Shown here: one piece after another, positions 2,358-34,823 of the stretch
How positions within the stretch are numbered: the first letter of the stretch is position 1
Layout of the letters: the number at the start of each line of letters is the position of its first letter
NCBI RefSeq assembly: GCF_900659865.1
Contig: NZ_LR213779.1
Span: 20,592-57,211, forward strand
Length of the DNA: 36,620 nt
Direction: 5' to 3'
Source: Hyella patelloides LEGE 07179
GTDB taxonomy: Bacteria > Cyanobacteriota > Cyanobacteriia > Cyanobacteriales > Xenococcaceae
The notes under the pieces: generated by a model
The model's database searches: none
The model's input: the letters and a program-made list of their open reading frames with translations, nothing else
What the model was told of the DNA's origin: nothing
Translations under genes and position numbers: made by a program

Positions 2358-5300
2358 ATGATAAATAATAGGTTTGATGATTTTTTAACTCGCGTAGTTG
2401 GTGAATACGATTTACGATTAATTGACCCGAAAGCTTTAGCCTTGATTGAGATCGCTGTAGAGATTGCCAATGGAACTTACAAGGATTCGAGTAATTCTTT
2501 TTTAGCTAGTATAGACCGAGCTTTTCAGCAGGGAATTACCCACCGAGAAATTGAAGAACTGTTGTTATTGCTATGTGTCTATGGTGGTTTTAATAAGGTA
2601 GCTGGTTGCTTTGGGACACTCAACGAGATTTTTGAGCAAACTGGTAACGGACATATGATATCTGCAATCAAACAACAAGATTATGCAATTCGAGATCGCC
2701 CAGGGCAAGTAGCTTTTTACGTGCTGTTGTGGAAACGTCGAGGTATTGACCGCGATTTATTCTACAATTACTGGAAAAACGTACACGGACCTCTCTGCGC
2801 TCGCTTACCTAGTCAATATCAATATTGGCAGTTTCATCTAGACCACAATCGAGGTGGTATTTGGCCTGCTATTCCAGGGATTGAATATATTTGCCCCGAT
2901 TCAGCACAATTTGATGGGATCGCCGAACTAACTTTTGAAACAGAAACTGCCCGTCAGAGTTTCTTTGCATCCTCTGGGATTTTGATGGCAGACGAGCATA
3001 ATTTGTTTAGTAAAGCGATCGGCTACAACACTGCTTTTGGTAATTCCAGAACCTATGTCGATCGCCTGCCCCTGGGCAATCCTAACGGTCAAATAGATGG
3101 GGTTAAATTCCACATCCCGATTCAGAAAGCTAACACTGTAAGTTTAGCTGAGTTTCGCCAATATCTTAGCGACAATTTTGCTTATGCGATCGCTCAGAGT
3201 AATTTGGTGTTGAAACTGAGACTGCATCTACTAGAAGCAGTAGATAACTCTCGTCCCGAAGCATTTGGAGTGAGTCATTCAGAACCGCCAGAACAACAGT
3301 ATCAGGCAGCAATAGAAATTGCTTTTGCCAATCCCTTGGAGATGGAACAATTTTTTGCTTCTAGCGAATACGCGACCGCAACTAAAGATTTAGCCAAATA
3401 TGTCAAGGCTTTTTATCCATTTCCAGAGCGCAGTGTCTACACCTTTGTCTATGACGGTAAAATGACCCTAGCAGGTAAACATAGTTCCCAAGTTGCCGAT
3501 CTGATTTTACAGGCAGGAGCCACTAACCAGCTTAAAGAAGAGATAGTTTCTTTAATGAATGGCACAGAATCGCAATTGCCATCTGATAACTCCAGTAATT
3601 CTGGTTTGGGTCGTTACCTTCAAGGAATCCAGCACTTTGGCGTAACCGTAAATGACATGGCGCAAGCGACGGAATTTTATACCGAAGTTTTGGGAGGACA
3701 ACTGGTAGTTAGTGAAAACGAATTAGTCGGCGATACGGTACAGAATACCCTATTTCAGAAAGAAGAACTAGATGCGATCGCCTCTGGTATCGATCCAGAC
3801 ATTACAGATTTGCCCCATCTTAGAAATGGCAAAGACAATGCGTTGGATGTCAAGTTTATTTCTTTTGGCAACACAGTAGTGGAATTGCTTCAGGTTCGAG
3901 AAGCGGGTAAACCCAATCCACATCAAAGTTCTGTTGACAGTCTTCCTTCCCATATCGGTCGCGTCAATGCTATGCACCTTTCTTTTAACGTTAAAGAAGG
4001 TATCGATTTAAACCTTTTTGCCCAAATGTTAGAAGAGGAATGCCAACATCGGGGCATGACCAATGTAGTTTTTAATCGGGTCATTCGAGTTAAATCGAAA
4101 GCAGAGAGAAAAGCGGTTGCTCTTAAATACAATTCCTTAAAGTTTTGGAATGAACCAGAAGACGAAGCACCAATTGACTGGAGCGACGATCCGATGGAGG
4201 GCTGGTCTTTATTCTACTGTAAAGGACCTAATGGGGAACAGCTCGAATTCAACCAAGTTACCCGCAAAGTCAAAGAACGATTTAGGCAAGGAGTACAAGA
4301 ATACAACCAGGCAAATGCTACTTCTTTTACTTTTCCAGAGGAGAAGGTTACTGATAAGATGAACAACGGACATTCTCAGCTAATAGATATTACCTTTCCC
4401 CATCAAGCCAAACCGCAACCAAAAACAGACGACCGACTGTTTTTCTCCTTTAGCTCTGCGGTAAAAGCTCCTTTAGAAACTGTTTGGGAAGTAGTGGTAG
4501 ACAAAATTGAAAATACGTCTCGCTACAACCCAGAGGCTCAAAATCCACAGATTTTAGCTAGATACTATAACGGCGTACTCAGGCAAATGAAAGCTTTGGG
4601 CATGACGGTCAAAGAAAAAATCGTTATTGATAAAGAAGCAGGAACGATCGTTCATACCCTATTAGATAATCCCTTTTTCACTGGCAAGATAGTAAATCAG
4701 CTTGTCCGACCAACAGCTAGCCATTCTCAAGACCCCTTGAAAATTAGCTATACCTTGGACTGGCAGCCAATTAACAAAGAAGGGGAAAAAATTGCTGCTA
4801 AAATTCGTGACAAACTTCAGCAAGCAGTCCGTCAAGCCGTCCTCAGTGCCAAAGAATTTTCCGAAAAACAAAACGAGTCGCCAAAAAAATTGTCAACCCA
4901 GATAAACCAAGTAAATAGGAAAAAATCAATGTCAACACAACTTCAAGGCAAAAATATCGACCTAGTAAAAAGGTTATTTTCTAGAGGTGAAGCATTTGAT
5001 TCTGCTGGATTTATTACCTTTTTTACGGATAAGCCATTGTACCAGTTTGGTAACTTTGAAATCTGCTTCGATAAGCCAGCAATCAGACAATCAGCAGATA
5101 ACTTTTTCAGTCAAATTAATGCAGTTTACCACGACATTAAAATGATGCGGGAAGTAGATGACGTGGTATTTGTAGAAATGGATGTTACCTATTGGCGTAA
5201 AGATAATTCTGTCATCACCCTACCTTGTTGTGATATCTTCCGTGTAGAAGGTGATAAATTCTCAGAATTGCGAATTTTCATGGATGTAGCTCCAGTTTTC

Positions 5301-5927
5301 GATCCCTCTATCAAAGTGCCAAGTACAACTTCTGTCATGACTATCAGTGAAAGCCAAAGAATGACTCCTCCAGATACCATGAAAAAGCACTTTGCTGAAC
5401 ATAAAGAAGGTAGACAAAGAGTAGAAACGGGAAATGTTCCTAAGTGGTCTATTAATGGACCTCAATGGATAATTGGTAGTAGTAACCAACCTCAATCGGA
5501 TGATAATTTGATTCCCAAAGTAGAAAAAATGGTTGAAGCATTGACCATTGAAGATTGGGAATCATTTTATCCCTACTTCACATATGATGTGTACTACAAA
5601 GTTGGTGCTAATGAACCTGTATATGGTCCCCATGCTGCTGCACAATATTTATCTTCTTTTTATCAAATAGTTAAACCTACACAACACCAAGTCAGAGGTG
5701 CTTGGCAAGTAGGTAATGACACCGTGATCATCGAAATGGATGCTCACTACAGGAGAATTAATGATGGTCAAGAGATCACAGTTCCCTGTACTGATGTGTA
5801 CAGATTTAAGGGTAATTTAATTAAGGAATGGCGGGTTTATCCTGATACTTCCAAGATTGGGGAAAATACTGATACTTCCAAAATTGAGGAAAATATAAGA
5901 GATTTTGCTAATTCACACCAAGGGTAA
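2358..5927 (+). CDS. Six-module fusion: CMD-EthD-VOC-SRPBCC-SnoaL-SnoaL
   Basis: A 1189-aa uninterrupted frame made of modules normally found as separate small proteins. The modules are: CMD-like, about 1-95 (EIEELLLLLCVYGGFNK); EthD double module, about 105-400 (paralogue of the upstream gene); VOC/glyoxalase-type paired beta-alpha-beta modules, about 418-645; SRPBCC (START/Bet v 1-like, possibly AtaL-like), about 690-830; SnoaL/NTF2-like 1, about 860-985; SnoaL/NTF2-like 2, about 1048-1165. The VOC part keeps a plausible metal-ligand set, H426, E509, H540 and E630, so it may be an active dioxygenase, lyase or isomerase. Linkers are polar and carry Met100, Met668 and Met858 at the seams, each a possible relic start codon. 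It follows the EthD-SnoaL gene by 50 nt. A sequencing artefact that joined genes is unlikely, because the frame is clean across five seams. The substrate is unknown; an aromatic or polyketide-like compound is an inference from the families. Confidence 0.8.
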   Translation: MINNRFDDFLTRVVGEYDLRLIDPKALALIEIAVEIANGTYKDSSNSFLASIDRAFQQGITHREIEELLLLLCVYGGFNKVAGCFGTLNEIFEQTGNGHMISAIKQQDYAIRDRPGQVAFYVLLWKRRGIDRDLFYNYWKNVHGPLCARLPSQYQYWQFHLDHNRGGIWPAIPGIEYICPDSAQFDGIAELTFETETARQSFFASSGILMADEHNLFSKAIGYNTAFGNSRTYVDRLPLGNPNGQIDGVKFHIPIQKANTVSLAEFRQYLSDNFAYAIAQSNLVLKLRLHLLEAVDNSRPEAFGVSHSEPPEQQYQAAIEIAFANPLEMEQFFASSEYATATKDLAKYVKAFYPFPERSVYTFVYDGKMTLAGKHSSQVADLILQAGATNQLKEEIVSLMNGTESQLPSDNSSNSGLGRYLQGIQHFGVTVNDMAQATEFYTEVLGGQLVVSENELVGDTVQNTLFQKEELDAIASGIDPDITDLPHLRNGKDNALDVKFISFGNTVVELLQVREAGKPNPHQSSVDSLPSHIGRVNAMHLSFNVKEGIDLNLFAQMLEEECQHRGMTNVVFNRVIRVKSKAERKAVALKYNSLKFWNEPEDEAPIDWSDDPMEGWSLFYCKGPNGEQLEFNQVTRKVKERFRQGVQEYNQANATSFTFPEEKVTDKMNNGHSQLIDITFPHQAKPQPKTDDRLFFSFSSAVKAPLETVWEVVVDKIENTSRYNPEAQNPQILARYYNGVLRQMKALGMTVKEKIVIDKEAGTIVHTLLDNPFFTGKIVNQLVRPTASHSQDPLKISYTLDWQPINKEGEKIAAKIRDKLQQAVRQAVLSAKEFSEKQNESPKKLSTQINQVNRKKSMSTQLQGKNIDLVKRLFSRGEAFDSAGFITFFTDKPLYQFGNFEICFDKPAIRQSADNFFSQINAVYHDIKMMREVDDVVFVEMDVTYWRKDNSVITLPCCDIFRVEGDKFSELRIFMDVAPVFDPSIKVPSTTSVMTISESQRMTPPDTMKKHFAEHKEGRQRVETGNVPKWSINGPQWIIGSSNQPQSDDNLIPKVEKMVEALTIEDWESFYPYFTYDVYYKVGANEPVYGPHAAAQYLSSFYQIVKPTQHQVRGAWQVGNDTVIIEMDAHYRRINDGQEITVPCTDVYRFKGNLIKEWRVYPDTSKIGENTDTSKIEENIRDFANSHQG

Positions 5928-5937
5928 ATGATCGATC

Positions 5938-6057
5938 ATGATGACTATTTCTCAAGAAAGACAAATAGTCAGCGCAATAGTTATTTTCTTGGTCAAGCCA
6001 GAACAACATTTAGGTAATCCAGAAGAGGTGGCTTTAGCAAAAATCAATCATTTTTAA
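5938..6057 (+). CDS. Possible 39-aa ORF or gene remnant after the fusion gene
   Basis: ATG 5938 opens a 39-codon frame (MMTISQERQIVSAIVIFLVK, then PEQHLGNPEE) that starts 10 nt after the fusion stop. The segment SAIVIFLVKPEQ resembles the first strand of small ferredoxin-like monooxygenase or EthD-type domains. It may therefore be a decayed extra module of the same cluster. There is no clear Shine-Dalgarno. It could be chance. Confidence 0.25.
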   Translation: MMTISQERQIVSAIVIFLVKPEQHLGNPEEVALAKINHF

Positions 6058-6118
6058 TTGTCAACCGATAAATAACTAACGAACGATAAGTACTTCAAAC
6101 GCAAGGAATTAAAACATC

Positions 6119-6739
6119 ATGGCAACGAAATCTAAAGGCAAAATCGGCGTACTTATAGAAGAACATTTTGATGGTACAGAGTTTCGTCGGTTTAACGAAT
6201 ACTTTCCCACACAAGGTTATGAAGTCGAATACATTTCTCACCTCTGGGGTAACGAATCATTGCAATTTGGTTCTAATCCTGAAAATGACACCATCGAAGA
6301 ACACGTTACAGTTACTACCGAAGTAGAAAATATTAACCCTGATGACTATAAAGGAATCATTTGTATCGGTGCATACGCGATGGATCGCCTAAGATATCAG
6401 GTTAATGTTACCAAAGGTCAAAAAAATAACGCCCCAGCAGTGGTATTTTTGCGACAAGCTGTAGCGACAGAAAATCTGAAATTAGGAACGATCTGTCATA
6501 GTCTGTGGCTGTTTTGTGCAGATTCCGACTTGCTCAAAGATCGTCAAGTAACTTGCGCTCACAATATCATTTGCGATGTCGAAAACGCAGGGGCAGAAAT
6601 TATCTATGATGGCGATGTCACCGCCGATTTAGTTATCGATGGCAACCTCATTACAGGAAAGCATCCAGGGGTAGTCGATTTGTTTATGGACGCTTTTGTC
6701 AAAGAAATAGAAAAAGTTAACGCCCTTAGCTTTGCTTAA
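6119..6739 (+). CDS. DJ-1/PfpI family protein
   Basis: A 206-aa cytosolic protein of the DJ-1/PfpI class-I glutamine-amidotransferase-like fold. The nucleophile elbow is GTICHSLW with Cys126 followed by His127. An early acidic stretch (EE at residues 14-15) is placed like the conserved Glu of DJ-1 proteins. Family members include glyoxalase III/deglycase-like, chaperone, isonitrile hydratase and peptidase-like proteins; the sequence does not decide which. Upstream AAGGA (about 6101-6105) is a usable, slightly distant Shine-Dalgarno. It lies 191 nt after the fusion gene and 59 nt before the NmrA-like gene, in the same direction. With catalase nearby it suggests handling of reactive carbonyls or a reactive pathway intermediate (inference). 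Confidence 0.8.
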   Translation: MATKSKGKIGVLIEEHFDGTEFRRFNEYFPTQGYEVEYISHLWGNESLQFGSNPENDTIEEHVTVTTEVENINPDDYKGIICIGAYAMDRLRYQVNVTKGQKNNAPAVVFLRQAVATENLKLGTICHSLWLFCADSDLLKDRQVTCAHNIICDVENAGAEIIYDGDVTADLVIDGNLITGKHPGVVDLFMDAFVKEIEKVNALSFA

Positions 6740-6740
6740 C

Positions 6741-6775
6741 TTTTTGAGCGACAAAAGTTCATAACTTCTCAAAAA
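6741..6775 (+). terminator. Hairpin between the DJ-1 and NmrA-like genes
   Basis: TTTTTGAG (6741-6748) is the exact inverse of CTCAAAAA (6768-6775). Inside it, AAGTT-cat-AACTT (6755-6767) forms a second stem. There is no T-run after it in the + direction, so it may attenuate or protect the mRNA rather than terminate it. Confidence 0.3.
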
Positions 6776-6798
6776 TCAACTAATTAGGAAGCAAACAA

Positions 6799-7437
6799 AT
6801 GCGAGTTCTTATTTGTGGAGCAACGGGAAATATCGGTCGTTTGACGGTCAATCAGGCTTTGAGTGCTGGACATGAAGTAACTGCTTTGGCTCGTTCTCCC
6901 CAAAAGCTCGATAATCAAAGCAATCTGAATAAAGCTCAAGGTGATGTCAGGGATGCTGCTAGTATCGAAGCAGCTATGGTAGGACAAGAAGCTGTTATAA
7001 CCGTTTTTGGCGCACCCCTTAATTGGTCTACTGTGACTAGCGTTCCCGATCTCTGCACTACAGGAACTCGTAACATTATCAGTGCAATGAAACAACAGGA
7101 GGTAAAACGCCTGATATGTATGACTGGAATCGGTGCAGGAGATAGTCGGGAACATGGCAGATTTGTGTTCGATAACTTAATCTTACCTTTGCTATTAGGA
7201 CGCATCTATGCAGATAAAAACCGCCAAGAAAGAGAAGTTATGCAGAGTAATTTAGATTGGACTATCGTTCGACCTGCTGAATTAACCGACGAATCTGAAA
7301 CGGATGACTATCGTGTCTTAACCGATCTCAAAGGACAAAAAGCTAAAACTATTGCCCGTACTAATGTAGCCGATTTTTTAGTCAAACAGGTAAAAAGCGA
7401 TCGCTTTTTACACCAAACACCACTGATTACAAAATAA
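6799..7437 (+). CDS. NAD(P)-binding NmrA-like atypical SDR
   Basis: A 212-aa Rossmann-fold protein. The N-terminus MRVLICGATGNIGR carries the GxxGxxG-type dinucleotide motif (G7, G10, G13) of NmrA/atypical short-chain dehydrogenases. There is no YxxxK catalytic pair of classical SDRs. At about residues 150-158 DWTIVRPAELTDE is the family's usual 'xIRPxxL' segment. Members act as flavin/NAD(P)H-dependent reductases or as redox-sensing, non-catalytic binders. TAGGAAG about 10 nt before ATG 6799 is a fair ribosome-binding site. It is the last gene of the tight co-directional run and may supply a reduction step to the cluster (inference). Confidence 0.78.
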   Translation: MRVLICGATGNIGRLTVNQALSAGHEVTALARSPQKLDNQSNLNKAQGDVRDAASIEAAMVGQEAVITVFGAPLNWSTVTSVPDLCTTGTRNIISAMKQQEVKRLICMTGIGAGDSREHGRFVFDNLILPLLLGRIYADKNRQEREVMQSNLDWTIVRPAELTDESETDDYRVLTDLKGQKAKTIARTNVADFLVKQVKSDRFLHQTPLITK

Positions 7438-7490
7438 TCAAACTAATGTTTAGCTAAAACCCTTTTGGCGTTGCTGATTTAGCGAACGAG

Positions 7491-7631
7491 TGCGCGACGG
7501 CGAAGCCGAGTCCTTTAGGGGTCTTGGGCGGGGCAGAAGAGTTCTGCCTTCAGAAGACAGAATCAGCCCCTTGGGTTTCCCTCAATGAGCAATATGCGCG
7601 ATGCGCGACGGCGAAGCCGAGTCCTTTAGGG
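7491..7631. repeat. Two copies of a 30-bp 'CCTTTAGGG' repeat with hairpins
   Basis: An identical 30-bp unit (beginning TGCGCGACGGCGAAGCC, ending TCCTTTAGGG) lies at 7491-7520 and 7602-7631. It holds the mini-hairpin GGC-gaa-GCC. Between the copies, GGCAGAA-gag-TTCTGCC (7532-7548) is a perfect 7-bp stem. Further degenerate units with CCTTTAGG continue to about 7665. The same family recurs as a short insertion at 30422-30445. These are non-coding dispersed repeats of cyanobacterial type. They fill much of the 559-nt spacer before catalase. Confidence 0.75.
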
Positions 7632-7685
7632 AAGCGAGGCCTTTAGGGGAGCGGTATCCTTTAGGACTCGTTCAAGACAGTAATG

Positions 7686-7892
7686 TCACCCAAAATAATA
7701 CGGTTCGTAGACGGGCGGTATCCCCATCTCTTGACAATGTAAACTTCCCTCATTAACCTCAACAGCGTTATTGGATATGAGTCGCGAAACCCCAGCATCT
7801 CTCACGCTCAAAAGACACACCCTCCTATAAGCTTTCTTGCTTTGAAATAATTTTGAATAACAGTATAGATTAGTAAAAACTTGTCTCAGCAT
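7686..7892 (-). pseudogene. Possible 3' remnant of a TnpB-like transposase
   Basis: A 68-codon minus-strand frame. Its C-terminal part (VRDAGVSRLI, then AVEVNEGSLHCQEMG) reminds me of the tails of cyanobacterial IS200/IS605 TnpB proteins, which often read 'VREAG'. No catalytic region is present, and the start and 5' part are missing. The resemblance is from memory and weak. It could be chance coding in spacer DNA. Confidence 0.2.
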
Positions 7893-7996
7893 TATGCATT
7901 CACCAACGCCAAACTTTTAAGTATTCAATTTGGCAAAATCAATCGGATTCCGATCGCGCTTCAAATTTAACCCTTTAACTACACTACAAAACCAAC

Positions 7997-9487
7997 ATGG
8001 AAGAACGCAAAACTCTCACAACTAAAGACGGTTATCCGATTGCCGATAATCAAAATTCCTTGACTGCTGGTGCTAGAGGTCCAGTAGTTATGCACGATTT
8101 TCATCTTTCGGAAAAACTAGCTCACTTTAATCGCGAACGTATTCCCGAACGAGTGGTTCATGCTAAGGGTGCTGGTGCTTTGGGTACGTTTACTGTTACC
8201 AAAGACATCACTCAGTACACCAAAGCTAAACTGTTTTCTGAAGTCGGAAAACAAACCCCAGTCTTGGCTCGTTTTTCTACCGTAGGGGGTGAGAAAGGTT
8301 CTGCTGATGCCGAACGAGATCCTCGTGGTTTTGCAGTAAAATTTTATACCGAAGAAGGTAACTGGGACATGGTGGGAAATAATACCCCTGTCTTTTTTAT
8401 TCGCGATCCGCTTAAGTTTCCCGACTTTATTCATACTCAAAAACGCTGTCCTGCTAACAATCTTAAAGATCCATATATGCGTTGGGACTATTGGTCGCAA
8501 TCTCCTGAAGCACTACATCAGGTAACAATTCTTTACAGCGATCGCGGTATTCCGAAAACCCATCGTCACATGAATGGTTATGGCAGTCATACCTATAGTT
8601 TAATTAATGAAGATAACCAGCGAGTTTGGGTTAAATTCCATTTCAAAACTGTGCAGGGAATTCAAAACTTAACTGAAACCGAAGCTGCTAAAATCAAAGC
8701 CCAGAATTCAGATCATGCGACTGAAGATCTTTGGGATGCGATCAAAGAGAGTGACTATCCTCGGTGGCGTTTCTGTATTCAGGTAATGACTGAAGAACAA
8801 GCAAAAACTCACCCTGATAATCCTTTCGATCTGACCAAAGTTTGGAAACACGCTGATTATCCTTTAATCGAAGTGGGTATCCTCGAACTCAATCGCAATC
8901 CCGATAACTATTTTGCCCAAATCGAACAGGCAGCATTTTCTCCCAGTGCGATTGTGCCAGGAATTGATTTTTCTCCCGATAAAACTTTATTAGCGCGGGT
9001 TGCGTCTTACAATGATGCCCATCGCTATCGTTTAGGCACAAATTACCAACAACTGCCAGTCAACTTACCTCAATGTCCTTTTGCTACTTACCAGCGAGAT
9101 GGCGCAATGGCTTATGGCGATAATGGTGGCAGTACTCTCAATTATGAACCTAATAGTGACCCCAACGCACCCAAACCCAGCACCGATTATCAAGAACCAC
9201 CTTTGCCTTTAGGAAATGTAGCTGTAGATAGATACGATCATCATGAGGGCAATGATGAATACTCTCAAACAGGTGATTTATATCGTTTACTAGATGAGGA
9301 TGCCAAACAAAGACTGGTTGATAACATTGTCGGTAGTTTAGGACAAGTTCCTGAAGAGATTCAATTAAGGCAACTCTGTCACTTTTTCCGTGCTGATACT
9401 GATTATGGAATGCGGATTGCTAGAGGTTTGGGAATTAAAATCGATCCTTCGATGTTACCAAAAGAACTCCAAGAACTGAAAGCTTGA
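7997..9487 (+). CDS. Monofunctional haem catalase (small-subunit type)
   Basis: A 496-aa catalase that breaks down H2O2 to water and oxygen in the cytosol. The full set of key residues is present: distal His55 ([10 protein letters not shown]), Asn128 ([13 protein letters not shown]) and proximal haem ligand Tyr338 ([14 protein letters not shown]). Length fits clade-3 small-subunit catalases (about 480-500 aa), and there is no C-terminal flavodoxin-like domain of the large-subunit type. The start at ATG 7997 fits the family N-terminus ([18 protein letters not shown]). No strong Shine-Dalgarno is visible (upstream AACC AAC). Many cyanobacteria rely on bifunctional KatG or peroxiredoxins, so this gene type is accessory. 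Its place after the EthD/DJ-1 run, across a repeat-filled 559-nt gap, suggests its own promoter. Confidence 0.93.
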
Positions 9488-9818: not shown

Positions 9819-11186
9819 ATGATTTCTCAATCTAAGTCCAAAAACATCCCCCTATCAGTTTTAATTGTTGGGTTACTCTCTTTTGGTGTTGGTAGTTGTG
9901 GTAATAGAAACAACCAGCAAACAAATCAACCTCAAGCAGTTGCTGTACAGCTACAAACTATCGAACCAGTTACTATCAATGACAGTAGCGAATATGTCGG
10001 CACTTTACAAGCTAGAGATCGAGTGAGTCTGGCACCCCGCACCGAAGGCAGAATCTTAGAAATCTTTGTCAGTCAGGGCGATCGCGTTAGTCGAGGCGAT
10101 CCTATTGCCTCCTTTGAACCAACTCAAGAAGAGGAAGACGTTAATGCAGCGACCCAAAGCGTCAATGTCGAACGAGCCATATTAGGGCAAACCCAAGCCG
10201 AATTGAGTACAGCCGAAGCCAACCGCGCTGCTGCTGCTGCCGAAGTGGAAAGTGCTAGAGCCGATTTGCAAGAATTAGAAGCCGAGGTAGAACTGGCACA
10301 AATCAATATTGAGCGAACTAAGATGCTAGTTGAAGGAGGAGCAGTAGCACAACAGGATTTAGATGACGATAATCGCGATTTAAAAAGCAGTCTTGCCCAG
10401 CGTAATTCGAGAAAAGAAACTCTGAATGCAGCAATTGAGTCGCTACGAGCAGCAGAAAGAGAGGTAGAGCAATCCAGAGCAAATATAGACAGTCAAAATG
10501 CCACGATAAGAAGAACAGAAGCCGAATTAGGCTCTATTAGCCAAAATTTAGCTTTTAATACTATCAATGCACCCATCGACGGTATTGTCGGCAGTTTTGA
10601 TGATAACAAAGTCGGTGATTACGTTGACGTTGGCGAAGAGTTGACCACCATTACCAACAATCAAAGCTTCGACCTTAATATTAATATACCTGTAGAATAC
10701 CGCGATCGCCTCAAAACAGGACTGTCAGTAGAAATTATTAACCAAGATGGTAGCCCAGGAGTGTCAGGAAAAATTACCTATATAGCTCCCTTAGTTCAAC
10801 AAAACACTCAGTCAATTCTGACTAAAGTTACTTTTGCCAATGAAAATAGCCTCAAAGATCGAGAATATGTCAGAGCCAAAGTAATTTGGGACAAAAAACC
10901 AGGAGTGTTAGTCCCAACTACTGCCGTGTCTACCTTGGGAGGACAAAGTTTTGTATACATTGCCCAACAACAAGAATCCGAGTCAGGAAAAACATCTTTA
11001 GTTGCCCAACAACAACCCATAAAGCTAGGAAAAATTCAGAATCAAGATTATCAGATAATTTCTGGCATTAAAGAAGGAGACAGAATTGCGGTTTCCAATA
11101 TCCTCAGCCTTAGAGATGGTACAGCCATTAGTGAAGCAGAACAAGAGCAAGCCGTGTCTGATGCGGTAGAAGGACTAAAAAACTGA
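9819..11186 (+). CDS. RND efflux periplasmic adaptor lipoprotein (HlyD/AcrA type)
   Basis: A 455-aa membrane-fusion protein linking an RND pump to an outer-membrane channel. The N-terminus is a lipoprotein signal: hydrophobic residues 10-25 end in VGSC, so Cys27 would be lipidated. A barrel-sandwich/lipoyl half lies at about 60-100 (GRILEIFVSQGDRVSRGDPI). A long Glu/Ala/Arg-rich coiled-coil hairpin spans about 104-244. The second lipoyl half starts at about 248 (TINAPIDGIVGSF), then come beta-barrel and membrane-proximal domains. ATG 9819 lacks a strong Shine-Dalgarno (AAAAAAGGT is 12 nt upstream). It pairs with the RND gene 123 nt downstream; no TolC-like gene is in the window, so the channel must be encoded elsewhere. 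The substrate is unknown. Confidence 0.9.
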   Translation: MISQSKSKNIPLSVLIVGLLSFGVGSCGNRNNQQTNQPQAVAVQLQTIEPVTINDSSEYVGTLQARDRVSLAPRTEGRILEIFVSQGDRVSRGDPIASFEPTQEEEDVNAATQSVNVERAILGQTQAELSTAEANRAAAAAEVESARADLQELEAEVELAQINIERTKMLVEGGAVAQQDLDDDNRDLKSSLAQRNSRKETLNAAIESLRAAEREVEQSRANIDSQNATIRRTEAELGSISQNLAFNTINAPIDGIVGSFDDNKVGDYVDVGEELTTITNNQSFDLNINIPVEYRDRLKTGLSVEIINQDGSPGVSGKITYIAPLVQQNTQSILTKVTFANENSLKDREYVRAKVIWDKKPGVLVPTTAVSTLGGQSFVYIAQQQESESGKTSLVAQQQPIKLGKIQNQDYQIISGIKEGDRIAVSNILSLRDGTAISEAEQEQAVSDAVEGLKN

Positions 11187-11309
11187 AGGGTAGACAAGTA
11201 GCAAGCAGAAAGTATGGCAATAACATTATTTATCATAATTTTCTACTAACTACTGTAAAGACGCGAAATAAGAAGTCTCTACCCATTAACTACTAACTAC
11301 TTTGAAGAA

Positions 11310-14300
11310 ATGTCCATCTCAACCCCATTTATTAAACGCCCCGTTCTCACTACCGTCTGTACAATTGTAATTGTGTTGTTGGGCGTTATCTGCATCGCAT
11401 TGTTGCCTTTAGATAAACTGCCTCAAATTGCTCCCAAGCAAATCACAGTGAGTGCTAACTATGTAGGCGCAGATGCTAGAACTACCGTAGATAATGTCAC
11501 TACTGTATTAGAAAGAGAAATCAATGGTACAGAAGATGTCAGATGGATTAACTCCAACACCGATAATAACGGTAATGCCACGATCAATGTGTCTTTTCCT
11601 GTAGAGAAAGATACCAATATTGCTCAGGTACTGGTGCAAAACAGAGTTGCTCAGGCACAATCAAATTTACCTCAAAGTGTTCTCGCCACGGGAGTAACTA
11701 CAGAGAAACAATCTCCTAGTATTACTCTGGCTTATGCTTTTTCTTCAGAAAAAGATGAAAATGGCGAATACTATTATGACCCTGTGTTTATCTATAACTA
11801 TGTCAATCGCTATTTATGGAACGAACTCAGAAAAATTGAAGGAGTAGGAAGTCTCAGTGCATTTGGTTCAGCTAGTTATTCGATGCGAATTTGGCTCGAT
11901 CCCAATAAATTGGCTGCTAGGGGATTAACAGCAAGCGATGTAGTTGGTGCGATTCAAAACCAAAACTTTGAAGTCGGTGCGGGGGGTGTGGGCAGACAAC
12001 CAGTACCAATCGCACAGCAGTACGAATTACCCTTAAGAGTCAACGGTAGATTTACCACTGTCGAAGAAGCAGAAAGCCTAGTAGTACAAGCCCAAAGCGA
12101 CGGTACGCTGATTAAGATTAAAGATGTCGGACGAGCCGAATTAGGAGTAGAAGATTATTTTACCAAATCCATATTTGATGGGGAAGCCCCTGCGGTCGGA
12201 TTACTTATCTATCAGCTTCCTGGTACAAATGCACTGAATACTGCCGAGTTAGTTAAAGCAAAAATGGCAGAATTAGAGGCAGATTTTCCCAGGGGTTTAA
12301 AAGCAGAAATTGCTCATGATAATACTCTGTTTATCAATTCTTCTTTGCAAGACTTGGTAGTTACCTTGGTACAGGCAATTGGACTGGTTGTCTTAATTAT
12401 CTTTATTTTTCTTCAAGACTGGCGTACTACCCTGATTCCAGCGATCGCTATTCCTGTAGCCTTAATTGGAGCGATGATTGCACTACAAGCATTAGGATTC
12501 ACCCTCAATCAGCTAACCCTATTTGCTTGTGTACTGGCAACGGGTTTGGTAGTAGATGACGGGATTGTGATCGTCGAAGCAGTATCAGCCAAGCTTTCTC
12601 AGGGGATGCGTCCTGTGCAGGCAGCTTTAGATGCAATGGAAGAGTTGGTCGGGGCGGTAATTTCTACTTCTGTGGTCTTGATGGCGGTGTTTATCCCCGT
12701 CACTTTCTTCCCTGGTACAACAGGGATTGTTTACAAGCAGTTTGCCCTCACTATCGCTTTTGCTGTAGTCTTTTCCACCTTTAATGCCTTGACTTTTTCT
12801 CCCAGTATGTCAGGAGTATTTCTGCGTCGGACGCAACCCGTAAAAGGACCTTTGGGCTGGTTATTTCCTAGATTTAACAGAAGTTTTGACTGGTTGAAAG
12901 AACGCTATCGAAGTCTGATTGAATTTCTCACCAACATAAAGCTTTTTGTCATCGCAATCTTTATTGGTGGTTTAGTGCTGACGGGTTGGACATATACCAG
13001 TTTGCCTCAAGGATTCGTACCTGAAGAAGACCAAGGCTATTTCTTTGTGCTAGTCGAGGCTCCTCCTGGTGTTTCCTTGAACTACACTCATAACATTACT
13101 CAGCAAGCAGCCGAGATGATTATGGAATATGAGGAAGTGGAGCATTCTTTGGCATTTTCAGGATTTTCTTTTGACGGTCAAAATAGTAATAAAGGAGTTA
13201 TGTTTGTCAAGCTTCATCCTTGGAATCAAAGACTAGGGGATTCTAGCTCGGTGTTTGGGCTGCTACAGCGAATCAATCAGCAGTTTCAACAACATATTGA
13301 TGGCGCGAGTGTCATTGCCGTTAATGCTCCTCCCGTAGACGGCTTGAGTAACTTTGGTGGTTCGGAAATTTATATCCAAGACCGTCAGGGTAGGGGAATG
13401 GAAACCCTAATGAGCAATACTCAACAGGTAATTGCTGCTGCTAACGAAAGACCCGAAATTGCCTTTGCATTCACTACCTTTACCTTTGATAGTCCGATGC
13501 TAGAGGCCGATATCAACCGCAATCAGGCCAACGCCCAAAATGTCGATATCAGCGAAATTCTCAATACCCTGCAAACCTATCTTGGTTCAAACTTTGTCAA
13601 TCAATTTGTCTTAGATGGCAGACTTTATCGAGTGTATGCTCAAGCAGAAGCTGAGAGACGCTCCAATCCAGATGATATTAACCGTCTTTCTGTGCGCTCT
13701 CGTGATGGGGAATTAATTCGGCTCAGCAGTCTCATCAATGTTCAACAAATTTCTTATCCGCCTATTGTTAGCAACTACAACGTTTATCCAGCAATTAGAG
13801 TTATTGTTGCTCCCACACCTGGTTATAGTTCGGGACAGGTAATTACGGCGATGGAGGAAGTAGCAGAAGCGACTTTACAACCAGGTTTTGGTTACGAATG
13901 GACCAATACCGCAGCCGAAGAAAAAACTGCTGGCGGAGCTGCACCTCTAGTATTTGGTCTCGCTTTTGTGATGGTTTTTCTGGTGCTAGCAGCACAATAC
14001 GAAAGCTATATCGATCCTCTAATTATTATGCTCACCGTTCCCCTAGCTATCCTGGGTGCATTGGGTGGAATTTGGCTGAGAGCAACTTTTTTACAGGCTG
14101 GTGGAGTGTGGCCCGTTCTCAACAACAACATTTATGCTCAGGTAGGTTTGGTGATGCTAATTGGTATGGCAAGTAAAAATGCGATTCTCATTGTGGAATT
14201 TGCCAATCAAAACCGCGATTTGGGTATGAGTATTGAAAAAGCCTCTATTTTTGCATCCGAACAGCGATTTAGAGCAATTTTAATGACTGCGATTTCTACT

Positions 14301-14588
14301 TTAGTCGGTTTTATGCCTCTCTTAATTGCTAGTGGTGCTGGTGCAGTCAGTCGTTGGTCTTTAGGAACGGCGGTGTTCGGCGGAATGTTAGTGGCAACTG
14401 CTTTGAGTCTGATCTTTGTCCCTATTCTTTATATTGTAATCAAAAACTTTGAACAATCTTTCTTAAAAAGAGACAGGAAGAAAGACGGTGGAACTCAAGG
14501 ACGAGAGAATGCGAATCATCATAATAATGGAACGCTAACAAAAGTTCCTTCAGAGACTGAAAAAAAACAATCAACAATTAAAAATTAA
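11310..14588 (+). CDS. RND multidrug efflux transporter (HAE1/AcrB family)
   Basis: A 1092-aa inner-membrane pump, slightly longer than AcrB (about 1050). The N-terminal TM1 is near residues 12-32, followed by the first large periplasmic porter loop. The TM4 proton-relay motif GLVVDDGIVIVE carries D416 and D417, and TM10 has IGMASKNAILIVEFA with K956; this triad indicates a working proton-driven pump. The porter, docking and second periplasmic loop (about 570-870) appear complete. The C-terminal tail (about 1045-1092) is hydrophilic, Lys/Asn-rich and probably cytoplasmic. It is co-oriented with the adaptor gene 123 nt upstream. It could export the product of the EthD cluster, but general solvent, dye or metabolite efflux is equally likely. 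Confidence 0.92.
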   Translation: MSISTPFIKRPVLTTVCTIVIVLLGVICIALLPLDKLPQIAPKQITVSANYVGADARTTVDNVTTVLEREINGTEDVRWINSNTDNNGNATINVSFPVEKDTNIAQVLVQNRVAQAQSNLPQSVLATGVTTEKQSPSITLAYAFSSEKDENGEYYYDPVFIYNYVNRYLWNELRKIEGVGSLSAFGSASYSMRIWLDPNKLAARGLTASDVVGAIQNQNFEVGAGGVGRQPVPIAQQYELPLRVNGRFTTVEEAESLVVQAQSDGTLIKIKDVGRAELGVEDYFTKSIFDGEAPAVGLLIYQLPGTNALNTAELVKAKMAELEADFPRGLKAEIAHDNTLFINSSLQDLVVTLVQAIGLVVLIIFIFLQDWRTTLIPAIAIPVALIGAMIALQALGFTLNQLTLFACVLATGLVVDDGIVIVEAVSAKLSQGMRPVQAALDAMEELVGAVISTSVVLMAVFIPVTFFPGTTGIVYKQFALTIAFAVVFSTFNALTFSPSMSGVFLRRTQPVKGPLGWLFPRFNRSFDWLKERYRSLIEFLTNIKLFVIAIFIGGLVLTGWTYTSLPQGFVPEEDQGYFFVLVEAPPGVSLNYTHNITQQAAEMIMEYEEVEHSLAFSGFSFDGQNSNKGVMFVKLHPWNQRLGDSSSVFGLLQRINQQFQQHIDGASVIAVNAPPVDGLSNFGGSEIYIQDRQGRGMETLMSNTQQVIAAANERPEIAFAFTTFTFDSPMLEADINRNQANAQNVDISEILNTLQTYLGSNFVNQFVLDGRLYRVYAQAEAERRSNPDDINRLSVRSRDGELIRLSSLINVQQISYPPIVSNYNVYPAIRVIVAPTPGYSSGQVITAMEEVAEATLQPGFGYEWTNTAAEEKTAGGAAPLVFGLAFVMVFLVLAAQYESYIDPLIIMLTVPLAILGALGGIWLRATFLQAGGVWPVLNNNIYAQVGLVMLIGMASKNAILIVEFANQNRDLGMSIEKASIFASEQRFRAILMTAISTLVGFMPLLIASGAGAVSRWSLGTAVFGGMLVATALSLIFVPILYIVIKNFEQSFLKRDRKKDGGTQGRENANHHNNGTLTKVPSETEKKQSTIKN

Positions 14589-15176: not shown

Positions 15177-15585
15177 TCGATCGCTAATATATGCTTTTAT
15201 AAATTTTTCGTCCAACGGTCGATCGATGCTCAGATTCGACTGCGAGCTAAAAGCAAAGCTATGCAATCGCCAAGGCAAAAGAATCAGGGCAAACGCACCC
15301 AAATTGAGTCCAAAATGTCTGAAGAAGAAAGAAAGGATGAAACTCGAAAAAGAAAGTAATTAGTATAAAACACTTTATTTTAGCGACATAATGAGAAACA
15401 ACACTAGGATAAATCTAGTTAAAGTAACAATTAATTAGCGACAAAAGTTAGCTCTAAGAATGGATGAAATGATGGCTTTAATTATTCTGCAGATTTCATT
15501 GGTTTAGAGAGATTGTCGCTCTTAAATGAATTTTTTGTAGATAACATTTATTATTAAAAATTAAGCTTTTTACCTCCTTATTTTT
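15177..15585. other. Intergenic region with a short basic ORF and a long imperfect hairpin
   Basis: There is no well-supported gene. ATG 15261 opens a 32-codon, Lys/Arg/Glu-only-like frame (MQSPRQKNQGKRTQIESKMS, then EEERKDETRKRK) ending at 15359. It could be a tiny charged protein, but low-complexity DNA explains it as well. The right part holds the 15437-15520 hairpin listed separately and presumably the promoter of the next gene. Confidence 0.35.
15437..15520. other. 84-nt imperfect hairpin (RNA structure or operator candidate)
   Basis: Three nested arms match in order. AGCGACAA (15437-15444) pairs with TTGTCGCT (15513-15520), CTCTAA (15452-15457) with TTAGAG (15504-15509), and ATGAAAT (15464-15470) with ATTTCAT (15493-15499), around a 22-nt loop. 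It ends 65 nt before the start of the 387-aa gene. It may be a 5'-UTR element, a small RNA or a palindromic repeat. The 13-mer AGCGACAAAAGTT at its left edge also occurs at 6747. Confidence 0.45.
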
Positions 15586-16749
15586 ATGAGTGTACCAAAA
15601 AAACTCCAAATAGAAAATTTAAGTTCTAATCAACAAAAATCTGAATCAAATAATCTCAGGGTAGTAGAAATTTCTAAAAATAAGCAGAAACCAAAAAGTA
15701 CAGTCAACTTTTTGAGTCATCTACTAGCTATTCGAGCAATTGACTATTGGCTTGAACGAGTAAAATATCCCATTGATATTCAAAAAGCTCTCAAATTTTT
15801 AGGCTTAAGAATAAAGAATGATGCTGATTCATCTAAGCAAAATGAGTTGGATATACTCAATTTTTTGCAAAAATCTAACTCAAAAAAAATAGGAGATTTA
15901 TTTCAAGAAATCGAGTTAAGAATGGAGGAATTGTATAAAGTATACAGTTTTAATTATAATAATAGTGATTCTATAATTAGTCTATTTGAAAAGGCAGAAA
16001 ATTACCTAGATAAATTGTATACAGGCACTAAATCATGTGGATGTCATCTTACTTTAAAGACTAACTATCAAAATTTACACAGAGAATTAAACGATAGATT
16101 TAATAATTTAGTTTCTTTTTGGAAGATAGCATCAGTTCAAAACAGTTTATATTTCTTTCAAGAAATTAACAGCTTTTTGCTCAGTTTGGAAAATGAATAT
16201 CAAAAAGAAAAAGAAAAATATTTAGACAAAGAAAATGCTTGTTTACGAACCTACAAAAGATTTTTGTCCGCTATTCGGTACCAAGATAATCAAAATGATT
16301 TATGTAAATTACACAATAATTTATCCATAGCTAAGCAGTCGTTATTAAATTCATATAAATTTAAAATTAAAGCAGAGACATATTTTTTGGCTAATCAAGT
16401 TTTGAATAGTCTAATCAAAAATAATCAAATGTATATTGAGATTTTACAAGAATGTTATCAGTTTTTAGCACAAGTTAAAGCTAATTTTTTGACTCAAGCT
16501 AATATAGAAGAAAATAATTTATTTTTACCCTTGATTGCTGATAAAATAACTAATCAAGTTAATCTGGGTCATTTGCAAACAAAAGTCGAAATAAAATTAG
16601 GACACTCTTTGCCTACTTGGAAGCGTTACACTGGCATCACTATAAACAATGTCCAAGATGCACTTCTCGAAGAAGTTAAACCCATAGCCAAAAAAATTTG
16701 CTTAGACACATATCATCAACTCGCTTGCGAAGTTGATGGTTTTGAGTAG
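15586..16749 (+). CDS. Orphan AT-rich helical protein, 387 aa
   Basis: I do not recognise this protein. It is soluble, Lys/Asn/Leu-rich and probably mostly helical, with coiled-coil-like heptads around residues 195-260 (ENEYQKEKEKYLDKENA) and no signal peptide or membrane span. Residues 1-45 are polar and probably disordered. A small Cys cluster (KSCGCHL) is near residue 152, and the C-terminus (WKRYTGITINNVQDALLEEV) looks globular. Codons are markedly A/T-ending, more so than in neighbouring genes, which suggests acquisition or relaxed selection. The start ATG 15586 follows CCTCCTTATTTTT, with no purine-rich Shine-Dalgarno. It is flanked by hairpins, repeats and a pseudogene. Confidence 0.6.
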   Translation: MSVPKKLQIENLSSNQQKSESNNLRVVEISKNKQKPKSTVNFLSHLLAIRAIDYWLERVKYPIDIQKALKFLGLRIKNDADSSKQNELDILNFLQKSNSKKIGDLFQEIELRMEELYKVYSFNYNNSDSIISLFEKAENYLDKLYTGTKSCGCHLTLKTNYQNLHRELNDRFNNLVSFWKIASVQNSLYFFQEINSFLLSLENEYQKEKEKYLDKENACLRTYKRFLSAIRYQDNQNDLCKLHNNLSIAKQSLLNSYKFKIKAETYFLANQVLNSLIKNNQMYIEILQECYQFLAQVKANFLTQANIEENNLFLPLIADKITNQVNLGHLQTKVEIKLGHSLPTWKRYTGITINNVQDALLEEVKPIAKKICLDTYHQLACEVDGFE

Positions 16750-19850: not shown

Positions 19851-22800
19851 CTAGAACTTGTTGTCTAAAAACTGAGAATTTTCGAGAATTTGCTCTGCCG
19901 CTTCTGGAGGAACAGGATGGGAAAACCAATATCCTTGTCCGTATGGACAATCAAAATTTTGTAGACATTTTAATTGTTCTACGGTTTCAATCCCTTCAGC
20001 GATGACCTCAATGCCAATTTGACGAGCAAGGTCACTAATGCCTTTCGTAATGCTCATTAAAGATGAATCTGTGTCCAATGATTGGATGAACGACTGATCG
20101 ATTTTGATCAGGTCAATGGGAAGGCGATGCAGGTAGGACAGCGAAGAATAACCTGTACCAAAATCATCCAATGAAATGCTCACGCCCAATTTTTTTAACT
20201 CCACCATGAGGCTATCTACTAAACTGCTATAGCCAATAAATGAGTTTTCTGTTAACTCTAAACAGAGGTATTGGGTCTGAATGGCAGATTCGCTTAAAAT
20301 GACGCGGAGGTTATTGATAAAGCTGGAATGTTTTAAGAAGTCAGGAGAAATATTGACATGGAGTCGAAAGCTTGGACTAAGATCGAACTCTTGTTGCCAA
20401 TAGCTGAGTTGTTGGCAGGCTTGTTTGATAATAAAGTTTTCGAGTTTGGGCATCAAATGCGATGCCTGAGCTATGGGTAAAAAATCGAGAGGGGCTAGTA
20501 AACCTCGTTGTGGATGTTGCCAACGAACTAGTACTTCAAATCCCATAAGCGATCGCGACGATAAATCAACCAGGGGTTGGTAATGCAACACAAATTGTTC
20601 CTGCTCAATGGCTTGCTGGATAGCACCTTTTAAGTCCAACTGATTAAACCGCTCAGACCGCATCTCGTTACGAAACAGTTCAATATTTCCTGGTCCTCGA
20701 CGTTTTGCCTGATACATAGCAATGTCCGCATTTTCTAGAACCGAAGTTGCGCTTTTATAGGGAATTTCTGGAGGATGAAAGGCAATACCAATACTTATAG
20801 TTACGGATAATTGAGTAGAAGAGAGAGAAATAGGTTTAGAGATGATCGATTGAATGCGAAAGGCTACGTCCATAGCTATTTCGGAGTTATCAGACCTTTC
20901 TAAGAGAATGGCAAACTCATCCCCCCCTAAACGAGACACAATATCGCCAGGACGAGTCGAATCCTCCAACCGCTCGGCAACGATTGTAAGCAATTCATCA
21001 CCCGTAGCATGTCCCAGAGTATCGTTAATATCTTTAAAGTCATCAACATCCAGGTACAACACCGCGAATTTTCGGGATGGATCGCGACTCGCTCGCCCCA
21101 CTGCCATTTTTAGATGCTCCAAAAAAAAGGCTCGATTAGTTAACTCGGTTAAAGGATCGAAAAAGACCTGACGTTGCAGATCTTCTTGGAGCTGTTTTTG
21201 CTCAGTAATATCCATAATGGTGCCAAATAACGGAACCCTTCGCCCATACTCTTGGTTAGAAAAACAAGCGATGATATGAATATGGCGAAGGGTGTCTTCT
21301 CCTCTCGGATAAATGCGAATATCCATGTTGAACGAGGTCTGCTCAATACTCTGATTCCCTGAACTTATGGACTCCAGAGAATCCATTGACTCCCCTCGAT
21401 TTTGTATTAAGGACAGTTGACTCAGAAGATCGGTTACCTTAAGCCTATCGTCCTCGTGAATAATACTAAAAATTTCTCTGAGGGAAGGTTCTCCTCTAGT
21501 CGGGTCAAACCCTGTAATCCGAAACGTTTCAACAGACCACATCACTCGATCGATTTCTGGGTCATATTCCCAATCACCAATGTGGGCTATCTGCTGCGCA
21601 TATTCCAGGCGTTTTGTGGTGTTTTGAAGTTTTTCTTTGCTTTGCTTGATGTGGGTAATGTCGATTCCCACACCTGTTAGACCCACAATCTCCTGATTTG
21701 AGTTGTACCGAGGAGCATAGGTCATATCAAAATGTTGGACGGTATCATCTATGTCCAGTGTGATTTCGTGGTGGATCGTTTCCCCAGTATCTAAAACCTC
21801 CCGTTTCAGAGCGATCGGGTGCTCGGCTTTTTCGAGCGGGAGAAGATCCCGATCTCGGTGACCCAGCATATCATCTATGGAAAATCCTGGAATGGGGTTG
21901 TGTACCCATGTGTACCGCAAATCTAAGTCCTGGTTAAACAAAACGATAGACGTGCTGTTCAGGGTGTTACGAAGCAGGTTGTTGTTGTGCTGAAGCACCT
22001 TTTGGGCTTCAACCAACTCCGTAATATCTGTGATTACGCCTAAGCATTGTGAAGGAATCTCCTCACCATTGTTGGTAAAGAGCCGTGTCTGCTGATACAC
22101 ACAACGCGCCGTTCCATCTTTTTGCAGCATCTGGAACCTCGCGGTCAGAATTTCGCCGTTTTGATTTTCAGCGACCTGGTTTAAATGGTCTTGAAACGAT
22201 TCAAGGTCATCTGGGTGTATTAAACATTCAAGGACGTTATGACCCATTTCATAAATCTCTTCAGGGGTATAACCAATGAGACATTCAACTCCTAAGTTGG
22301 TATAAACTATGCTGCTAGTGGACAGGTCAAAAATGGTCAACGTGGCTGGGCTAGTATCCGCAATCTGCTGTAGGAACGCTTTGCTTTCTTGGAGTTCAGA
22401 CCGTACTAATTGTTGCTCGGTTATATCCGTGACAATTATTCCCACTCCCACCTGCTTGCTGTCTAATTTCACAGGAAAGAAGTTGAAAATCCAGGAAATT
22501 TCGCCAGATGGGAGATAAGAAACTTGTCGATTGATTTCTATATTAGTAACGGTTTGCCCCGTATTCATCACCTGTTGACAGTGGGTACTAATAATGTCAC
22601 TAATTTCAGGTAGAATCTCGGATAAGGGTTGGTTTAGATGTTCCTCAATACTGCGGTGGTCGATATCGGCGAGAACTTGGTTGACCCGAACAAATCGCAA
22701 GTCCTGATCCAGAACGCAGAGACCCACAGGACTAGTACTATAGATCTCTTCCAAAAGCTGGTTGCTTTGAAGTAGCTGAGCTTGTACCTGTTTGAGATCG

Positions 22801-25307: not shown

Positions 25308-25675
25308 AATTGAAAGGTTGATGATTATTGGAGGAGTGTATTCACGAGCAAACGTTTTATTTACTCGTGAATAGACGTTGGTTACTAGAGTAGATAAAGT
25401 TAGTCAAAGTAATGTATCAATACTTCTCAATTAATCACATTTTCCTTGAGTGTAAGTCCAAAAGTGATTACTATGGATCATTTTAAGCGGTAATTCGCAA
25501 AGAGAATCTAAAAATATTTGGTAGAAGATAAGCAGAAATGTCTTCTGATACTATTAAAGAATATATTTCTAATCAAAAGCTTTGATGGGACTAAAGCCTG
25601 CCTCAAAGCCTACATTGATCGGGTAAACCGCTCTGGTTTTGGCTTTGAATTCTATAAATAAATGTGTGAATTGAC
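25308..25675. promoter_or_regulatory. Shared divergent promoter region with an inverted repeat
   Basis: These 368 nt separate the CheB/CheR-type gene and the phytochrome gene. TATTCACGAG (25339-25348) is exactly inverted as CTCGTGAATA (25364-25373), 15 nt apart, 32 nt upstream of the CheB/CheR start. It is an operator or 5'-UTR hairpin candidate. At about 25516-25661 a plus frame reads SFDGTKACLKAYIDRVNRSG then FGFEFYK and a stop. That is protein-like but has no start, so it may be a gene remnant or chance. Confidence 0.5.
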
Positions 25676-28327: not shown

Positions 28328-28426
28328 TTTTAATTCAATTTTTTGATCTTAATCTTATTAGTACCGTAGAATCCTGTTTCCTATAGATAAGTCGCGGTGC
28401 GTCCAGCTAATACAACGGAGAATACT

Positions 28427-28828
28427 ATGGGAACTATACTTATTTGCGAAGATGATATTCCTTTAGCTGCTTATTGGCGACAGTTGCTAGAAGCTAAAAA
28501 CCATATCGTTTACTGTAGTGCAACGGTTTCCCAAGCCTTGCAGTTGGCTGACAAGATATTTCCTGACTTGATTATTACCGATATGATGATTCGGAAAAAT
28601 GAAAAATTTCTGCCCGAAGGGGGGCTTACTCTAGTTAACCAATTGCGCTCTAGAGTCCAACACTCTATTCCTGTTATCTGTGTTAGTGGCTATCGACCAA
28701 GCAGCTACAATCTTCTTCCTGCACTAGAGATTGCTAAGACAATGAAAGTTGACCTGACACTCTATAAGCCAATCACTCCAAAAAAACTTTTAGACGAAGT
28801 TCACAAGTTACTAGCGCGTCTAGACTAA
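28427..28828 (+). CDS. Stand-alone response-regulator receiver domain
   Basis: A 133-aa single-domain CheY-like protein with no output domain. Acidic pocket D9/D10 (ICEDD), phospho-acceptor D52 (LIITDMMI), switch Ser87 (ICVSGY) and Lys114 (LYKP) are all present, so it should be phosphorylatable. I start it at ATG 28427, because GGAG at 28417-28420 is well spaced; an in-frame GTG at 28397 has no such site. It lies 99 nt after the phytochrome gene in the same direction, so it probably takes phosphate from that kinase, which already has its own fused receiver. An insert around RKNEKFLPEGG after D52 lengthens the beta3-alpha3 loop. Confidence 0.88.
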   Translation: MGTILICEDDIPLAAYWRQLLEAKNHIVYCSATVSQALQLADKIFPDLIITDMMIRKNEKFLPEGGLTLVNQLRSRVQHSIPVICVSGYRPSSYNLLPALEIAKTMKVDLTLYKPITPKKLLDEVHKLLARLD

Positions 28829-30940: not shown

Positions 30941-31109
30941 GTTGATATTTTATCTATCTTCACAGCTATTTTTTAATTTTTTTATACACTTAAAAAGCAA
31001 TAAATAATGCGACATTCGATTTTGTAGGCTTGTTTAAGCATAAGCTTAAGAAATAGAACAGTACTATATTAATAACAAATTTTTTTATCTATATTTTTTT
31101 AATAACTTG

Positions 31110-34247: not shown

Positions 34248-34286
34248 AATTTACGCATTATGAGAATTTTTACCCAATATGTGCTG

Positions 34287-34309
34287 TAGGGCGGGGCATC
34301 GCCCCCCTA
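34287..34309. repeat. TAGGGCGGGGCATCGCCC palindrome
   Basis: TAGGGCGGGGC and the following CGCCCCCCTA form an imperfect stem around AT. There is no T-run, so it is more likely a dispersed GTGGGC-type repeat (compare 16865-16909) than a terminator, though it lies just downstream of the NTT fusion gene. Confidence 0.4.
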
Positions 34310-34423
34310 ATAAGCATAATCACTCATCAAAAACAGAAAAAATTAATAAAGTTTGCGAATCAAATGATTAGGCAAAAATATCGCTAAAATCAAAGAATTA
34401 AGAAGCCAAGGAGAGTGAAAATA

Positions 34424-34612: not shown

Positions 34613-34823
34613 CTTGAGAAACTCACCGATCTAAGAGACTGTTCGTAAATTATTTCTTTATCTATAGTACCCAGGATTTTACTTTTATTTTCGTTTGGTA
34701 TTGTTGGGCAATTAATAACTAACAATTTTTAGTTAGTTGAGAATTTACTCAAATCACAGCCAATAGACAAATACAACTTAATACTAGAGAAAGGCTGATA
34801 AATAGTTTTTCTTGAGTTTTTTT

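Follow-up and report, generated by a model that had tools for sequence, protein, structure and literature searches.

A seven-module protein of the cyanobacterium Hyella patelloides, probably formed by in-frame fusion of neighbouring genes in an icfG-type cluster

The window analysed here is a stretch of 36,620 nucleotides from Hyella patelloides LEGE 07179 (contig NZ_LR213779.1, positions 20,592 to 57,211), and it carries on its plus strand, at 2358–5927, a gene for a fusion protein of 1189 residues with the module order CMD~EthD-A~EthD-B~VOC~SRPBCC~SnoaL-A~SnoaL-B. As an earlier note made from the sequence alone had described, this is one clean frame of 1189 codons, which closes with TAA and contains no internal stops; the families named in that note stand, but its count of six modules becomes seven, since two EthD domains lie in tandem in the EthD region. 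From the N-terminus, all on the plus strand, the modules are an all-helical CMD-like module in which the conserved His of the family is replaced (2358–2642, residues 1–95); the EthD-A and EthD-B tandem (2694–3455, residues 113–236 and 245–366), assigned by Pfam; a VOC module with the residues H426, E509, H540 and E630 (3606–4265, residues 417–636), assigned by Pfam and alignment; an SRPBCC/AtaL-like module (4431–4883, residues 692–842), assigned by model and fold match; SnoaL-A (4935–5303, residues 860–982), assigned by Pfam and model; and SnoaL-B (5499–5861, residues 1048–1168), assigned by Pfam, model and tree, the last of which gives it an ancestry unlike that of the VOC module.

The Pfam scores of the whole protein place it in EthD (PF07110; 52.2 bits over two stretches, cut-off 22) and SnoaL_2 (PF12680; 70.1 bits over two stretches, cut-off 27), and a Glyoxalase match of 31.5 bits (cut-off 20.6), together with the H/E/H/E tetrad of metal type, places it in the VOC superfamily. 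For AtaL, the window protein stays below the cut-off (17.8 bits against 27, E 0.0029), and the fold backs SRPBCC; its own CMD match is likewise below the cut-off (E 0.19) and the family His is gone, whereas a profile of 22 homologues matches the solved CMD proteins 4g9q (E 3.7e-8) and 2af7 (E 1.2e-7) and relates the first stretch of the VOC module to the N-terminus of FosB. Module assignments without support, named in the earlier note as a finding that would speak against it, were not found; those of CMD and SRPBCC are predictions that draw their support from the homologues and the model, and not from the window protein by itself. SnoaL-A and SnoaL-B are 29% identical across 102 residues.

An AlphaFold2 model built from 22 aligned sequences (mean predicted local distance difference test score (pLDDT) 64.3, predicted template modelling score (pTM) 0.37) folds every module, with a helical CMD at 6–94, EthD-A at 118–235, EthD-B at 249–365, a weak VOC at 421–633, SRPBCC at 694–840 (pLDDT blocks of 65–88 across about 690–840), SnoaL-A at 865–981 and SnoaL-B at 1052–1165. 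In fold comparisons (VIA), the SRPBCC module resembles the aromatase/cyclases ZhuI (Z 16.8) and TcmN (entries with Z 15.7–16.1) over 145–148 residues at a root-mean-square deviation (rmsd) of 2.5–2.6 and with only 13–18% identity, the EthD pair resembles 3mcs (Z 15.3, rmsd 3.9, 205 residues), and SnoaL-B resembles the limonene epoxide hydrolase 5jpp (Z 17.0, rmsd 1.9, 117 residues). We know of no case in which ZhuI or TcmN is fused to modules like those of the window. The top Foldseek matches to the model were Lsd19 and MonBI–MonBII, SnoaL-type polyether epoxide hydrolases/cyclases (3rga, E 1.1e-9 over 337 columns), and Lsd19 is a tandem of two SnoaL-type units. At only 8–10% identity, this match indicates fold and not function, and the relative placement of the units is not matched, because the rmsd over the whole alignment is 16–17.

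Two overlapping sets were compared, namely an alignment (A2) of 22 fusions, of which 21 have a VOC module and one (L052) has none, and a survey of 66 loci, labelled with L numbers, whose rows may share strains and whose 22 EthD–VOC fusion loci add L048 and omit L052. The VOC tetrad noticed in the earlier note is kept in all 21 aligned fusions having a VOC module. Ratios of non-synonymous to synonymous substitution rates (dN/dS) lie at 0.02–0.44 across the compared modules of six close pairs by a simple counting method, and at 0.11–0.32 between the window and L041 in the six modules where they could be computed, dS being near saturation; this comparison supports purifying selection on the modules in close relatives. 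Of 386 genomes sampled across the phylum, 27 have a match to the protein at E 1e-10; of 388 from the order, 45 have one at E 1e-30, and 18 hold a single frame of at least 785 residues that covers EthD and VOC. The seven-module order, for whose exact sequence of modules the earlier note knew no described protein, occurs in 10 of the 22 fusion loci, the window counted; the remaining loci lack SRPBCC (four), CMD and SnoaL-B (three), SRPBCC and SnoaL-B (two), SnoaL-B (one) or CMD (one), or lack CMD and have two VOC modules (one). The 1370-residue relative at 9890–13999 of L048 has two VOC modules within one chain. Split versions also exist: L061 has the gene order EthD pair, CMD, VOC, SnoaL pair, SnoaL, and in L062 and L063 VOC, SnoaL, SnoaL pair and SnoaL genes lie upstream of EthD pair and NtfX. 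No paper on this fusion was found in the open-licence literature, as judged on listings, titles and the starts of abstracts.

The joints between the modules bear signs of former gene starts. At the seam between CMD and EthD, Met100 of the window (2655–2657, plus strand) stands where free EthD genes start, and in 15 of the 22 aligned fusions this joint reads AGGA, eight nucleotides and ATG; the spacing is seven in L047, which has CMD as a gene of its own, and the signal is gone from the window and from L041, L042, L045, L049 and L052. A Shine-Dalgarno-like signal 4–11 nucleotides before a start codon also lies upstream of the EthD module in 30 of 49 EthD genes without VOC, a count in which six of the 49 were not evaluable. 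The seam Arg is encoded by AGG in 15 of 15 rows, against 5 of 14 in the best of the 28 further columns that contain 11 Arg or more and 71 of 881 Arg codons overall in the 22 fusions. The window retains the signal at another seam, that between SRPBCC and SnoaL-A, where an in-frame AGGA–8 nucleotides–ATG (4917–4931, plus strand, with the ATG at 4929) marks a former or possibly working ribosome start; at the corresponding position (residues 856–858), a Shine-Dalgarno-like signal with ATG is found in 8 of the 22 aligned fusions, the window among them. In-frame ATGs with such a signal number 30 of 98 in linkers versus 17 of 344 in modules (Fisher p 6e-11, with related rows), and the seam tests were made post hoc, once the pattern had been noticed. 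Two CMD-less fusions, L046 and L008, keep a short in-frame CMD remnant (12–15 residues) before the seam signal; the seam ATG of L046 is the likely start because no other ATG, GTG or TTG precedes its EthD module, and L046 is the one clear case of a start at the seam ATG among such fusions. Taken together, the seam signals, the codon bias and the remnants favour fusion by loss of the stops between neighbouring genes. The proposal of the earlier note that a whole operon has collapsed into one polypeptide is well supported by these signals and by the adjacent separate genes of L061–L063, and homologues consistently split at the seams, which the note had set as evidence to the contrary, were not found.

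The same seams may be read as showing that the locus is in part still an operon, with ribosomes starting also at the seams, for example to make SnoaL-A~SnoaL-B from 4929, beside the full chain, a possibility that we entertain only tentatively. It would account for the AGG codon of the seam Arg, for the remnants of L046 and L008 that precede the signal, for the likely start of the EthD part in L046 and for the signal that the window retains before SnoaL-A. Against it, the seam site was picked after the fact among related rows, an in-frame GTG occurs earlier in both L008 and L040, the CMD remnant of the latter is some 110 nucleotides outside its frame, and the CMD–EthD signal is missing from the window. 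The upstream EthD gene could, moreover, have passed on its start region by gene conversion, a caveat tempered by L036, L038 and L039, in which the signal is kept and yet the fused and upstream copies stand apart in the tree.

The modules of the fusion do not share one history. In the VOC tree, the window groups with L041 (80% identity, support 95/93), whereas in the SnoaL-B tree its grouping with L041/L045/L036-type rows is rejected (approximately unbiased test, p 5e-6); placement of the window SnoaL-B in a clade with L042/L043-type rows was also rejected (p 0.004). These topology groups were defined after the tree had been seen, and the window branch is long; the trees nevertheless indicate that the SnoaL-B and VOC modules of the window differ in ancestry. 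Eight loci also have a free SnoaL-A~SnoaL-B gene, to which the fusion tail is 80–91% identical at the protein level, and in L045 five blocks of 30 codons show 100% DNA identity between the tail and the free pair. For L043, L044, L047, L049, L050 and L057, the EthD tree joins the fused and the upstream copy of each genome as sisters; the copies of the window are not sisters. Gene conversion is the simplest reading of such homogenised fused and free copies, and repeated duplication is a possible one. A single origin of the fusion was considered and finds no support, as the VOC tree needs four fused/split changes; for the label "fused with VOC", the EthD tree calls for 13 changes, a number inflated because of conversion between copies. 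We further speculate, with little confidence, that the buried ribosome-binding sites at the seams are selected and yield free modules besides the chain, with conversion keeping the EthD and SnoaL copies alike, so that the pathway would run both channelled and free.

The genes around the fusion place it in a recognizable setting. In the window, all on the plus strand, it is preceded by a free CMD gene in which the family His is kept (370–744; Pfam and sequence) and by an EthD-EthD-NTF2-like ("NtfX") gene (760–2307), to which the N-terminal portion of the fusion is related (62% over the CMD–EthD stretch), and it is followed by a DJ-1/PfpI gene (6119–6739). These four genes stand together on contig 14 of the genome, which also carries a GlgX gene and an AGE–STAS fusion (STAS by Pfam), whose ends lie some 8 kb upstream of the free CMD gene. 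CMD, NtfX, DJ-1, AGE, STAS and GlgX are thus found together in this genome, in which NtfX was found once. Among the 22 fusion loci, EthD-NtfX is present in 19, DJ-1 in 16, AGE in 14, GlgX in 14, STAS in 13, PP2C in 10 and RsbW in 9, and further genes are those for an SLH porin (10), CHRD (9), ABM (9) and multicopper oxidase (8), all counts being lowered by contig ends. By this gene content, the fusion sits in an elaborated icfG-type cluster. A free copy of NtfX has no Pfam match, the EthD-NtfX profile finds no convincing solved relative, and the model of the upstream EthD-NtfX protein was poor (pLDDT 46.7) and was not used.

In the portions of the published accounts available to us, slr1852–slr1862 of Synechocystis PCC 6803 form an operon in which slr1853 encodes CMD, slr1855 the epimerase, slr1857 GlgX, slr1856 and slr1859 STAS-type antagonists, slr1860 IcfG and slr1861 a kinase; this icfG operon is tied to carbon regulation, slr1861 being described as a kinase of anti-sigma antagonists (PMC12329169). 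L104 and L105 run NtfX-CMD-DJ1-AGE-STAS-GlgX-STAS-PP2C-RsbW without EthD, a nine-gene order that agrees with the published one for the genes named in those portions, and by gene order alone slr1852 would be NtfX and slr1854 DJ-1. The same portions name no EthD, VOC, SRPBCC or SnoaL fusion and assign no reaction to the small enzymes CMD, NTF2-like and DJ-1. Another likeness is to fungi, in which, according to the accessible parts of the respective reports, some EthD-domain proteins are decarboxylases in pigment-type pathways (PMC10890192) and multicopper oxidases occur in pigment clusters (PMC4591646). The EthD domain and the multicopper oxidases of the fusion loci are likened to these without sequence comparison, and the fungal EthD proteins, as far as those parts go, serve polyketide synthase (PKS) pathways, unlike the icfG-type setting of the fusion. 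The succession of SRPBCC and NTF2-like units seen in the fusion recurs on plasmids of Caballeronia and Rhizobium, where a gene of the first kind directly precedes one of the second (both matches weak, with E 7e-8 and 2e-7), the Caballeronia pair lying near a gentisate dioxygenase gene; more generally, distant proteobacterial relatives of single modules adjoin aromatic-catabolism genes, and an AtaL-like relative lies within a PKS cluster. A free-standing role in aromatic or polyketide tailoring, close to that envisaged in the earlier note, is not what the icfG-type neighbourhood suggests, but aromatic-type chemistry stays conceivable because of these relatives.

On balance, we consider it fairly probable that the protein is a multi-enzyme chain that arose by in-frame fusion of icfG-type cluster genes and is predicted to act on one intermediate. 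That neighbouring genes were fused can be proposed with high confidence from the comparisons. In the proposed scheme, which comparison supports in its first two steps, adjacent genes on one strand in an elaborated icfG-type cluster would have been joined in frame, and modules would have been gained, lost, doubled and exchanged. The tandem halves (EthD-A/B, the two VOC halves and SnoaL-A/B) may replace homodimers in cis, and the cis-paired modules would form several active sites that perform successive steps on one small molecule of carbonyl-rich or aromatic type, with a presumably metal-dependent site in VOC and a mainly structural role for the CMD module of the window. Decarboxylation is one candidate step because of the fungal EthD proteins reported as decarboxylases, and the neighbours GlgX, AGE epimerase and DJ-1 suggest a link to, or an origin in, stored-sugar metabolism.

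Several observations weigh against this multi-enzyme proposal. The model gives no confidence in the geometry between modules (pTM 0.37), across which an intermediate might hypothetically pass, as the earlier note surmised. The CMD His, which 15 of the 17 rows that have CMD in the fusion keep, is gone in the window and L041. SnoaL-B is not supported as a limonene-1,2-epoxide hydrolase, since the positions of the catalytic triad of that enzyme, Arg99/Asp101/Asp132, hold other residues, with an Asp one place off, in an alignment judged by eye. The evidence on function consists of folds, conserved residues and neighbours, and confidence in any specific reaction is low. Six of the 22 fusion loci show none of DJ-1, AGE and GlgX in the available sequence, in which some contigs are short. 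In contrast to the Synechocystis cluster, neither a close IcfG phosphatase nor an RsbW-type kinase was found with one query each in the window's genome, which is 98% complete: the best PP2C match there, on another contig, has 26% identity, and the kinase query, which gave nothing in this genome, was positive in five of five other genomes. Finally, in the VOC tree of 8 split and 23 fused genes, the split genes stand partly among the fused ones, so that secondary fission may account for some split loci, and this tree alone does not settle which split loci are ancestral.

The STAS, PP2C and RsbW-type genes alongside in many genomes, and the loss of the CMD His, could also be taken to mean that the protein is a non-catalytic, ligand-binding sensor or scaffold that informs the icfG partner switch about the carbon status; this appears improbable in view of the invariant VOC tetrad, the purifying selection on enzyme-type folds and the retention of the fusion in the window's genome though the kinase was not found there. 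An assembly or annotation artefact merging separate genes, for which a draft genome of 675 contigs might give cause, is very unlikely because the same order recurs in nine other named records, and the frame is free of internal stops.

Other features were observed in the window and in related loci. Downstream of the fusion, short GC-rich repeats (7491–7723; a 30-nucleotide unit twice and a 16-nucleotide unit four times) lie between NmrA-like and catalase genes, the catalase gene being at 7997–9487, and genes for an RND efflux adaptor and an AcrB-type pump are at 9819–14588. The region 19851–28828 contains, on the minus strand, a gene for a 1818-residue CheB-CheR-PAS-GGDEF-EAL fusion, beside which lie a phytochrome HWE kinase (25676–28327) and a response regulator (28397–28828). 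At 31107–35687, HEAT repeats and a cyclic-nucleotide-binding domain are combined in a 1046-residue protein, which is followed by a weak C39 peptidase match. In L006, the upstream stretch at 5769–8800 of the same contig has a free SnoaL pair, SnoaL-B and two genes of ABM monooxygenase-like type, and GlgX is directly preceded there by a SnoaL-A gene. In L050, a Nif11~SnoaL-A~SnoaL-B~ABM protein (15190–16695; ABM just under the cut-off) represents a second kind of fusion next door.

The fusion of neighbouring genes set out above offers an unusually clear natural series, with separate adjacent genes at one end and, at the other, a single seven-module protein that bears old gene-start signs at its joints, and such a series could therefore serve in tests of how bacterial enzymes fuse and why. 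The fusion further adds to the icfG-type cluster, the regulators of which have been studied in Synechocystis, and the substrate of the fusion, once found, would probably help to explain the small enzymes of the icfG core (CMD, NTF2-like and DJ-1).

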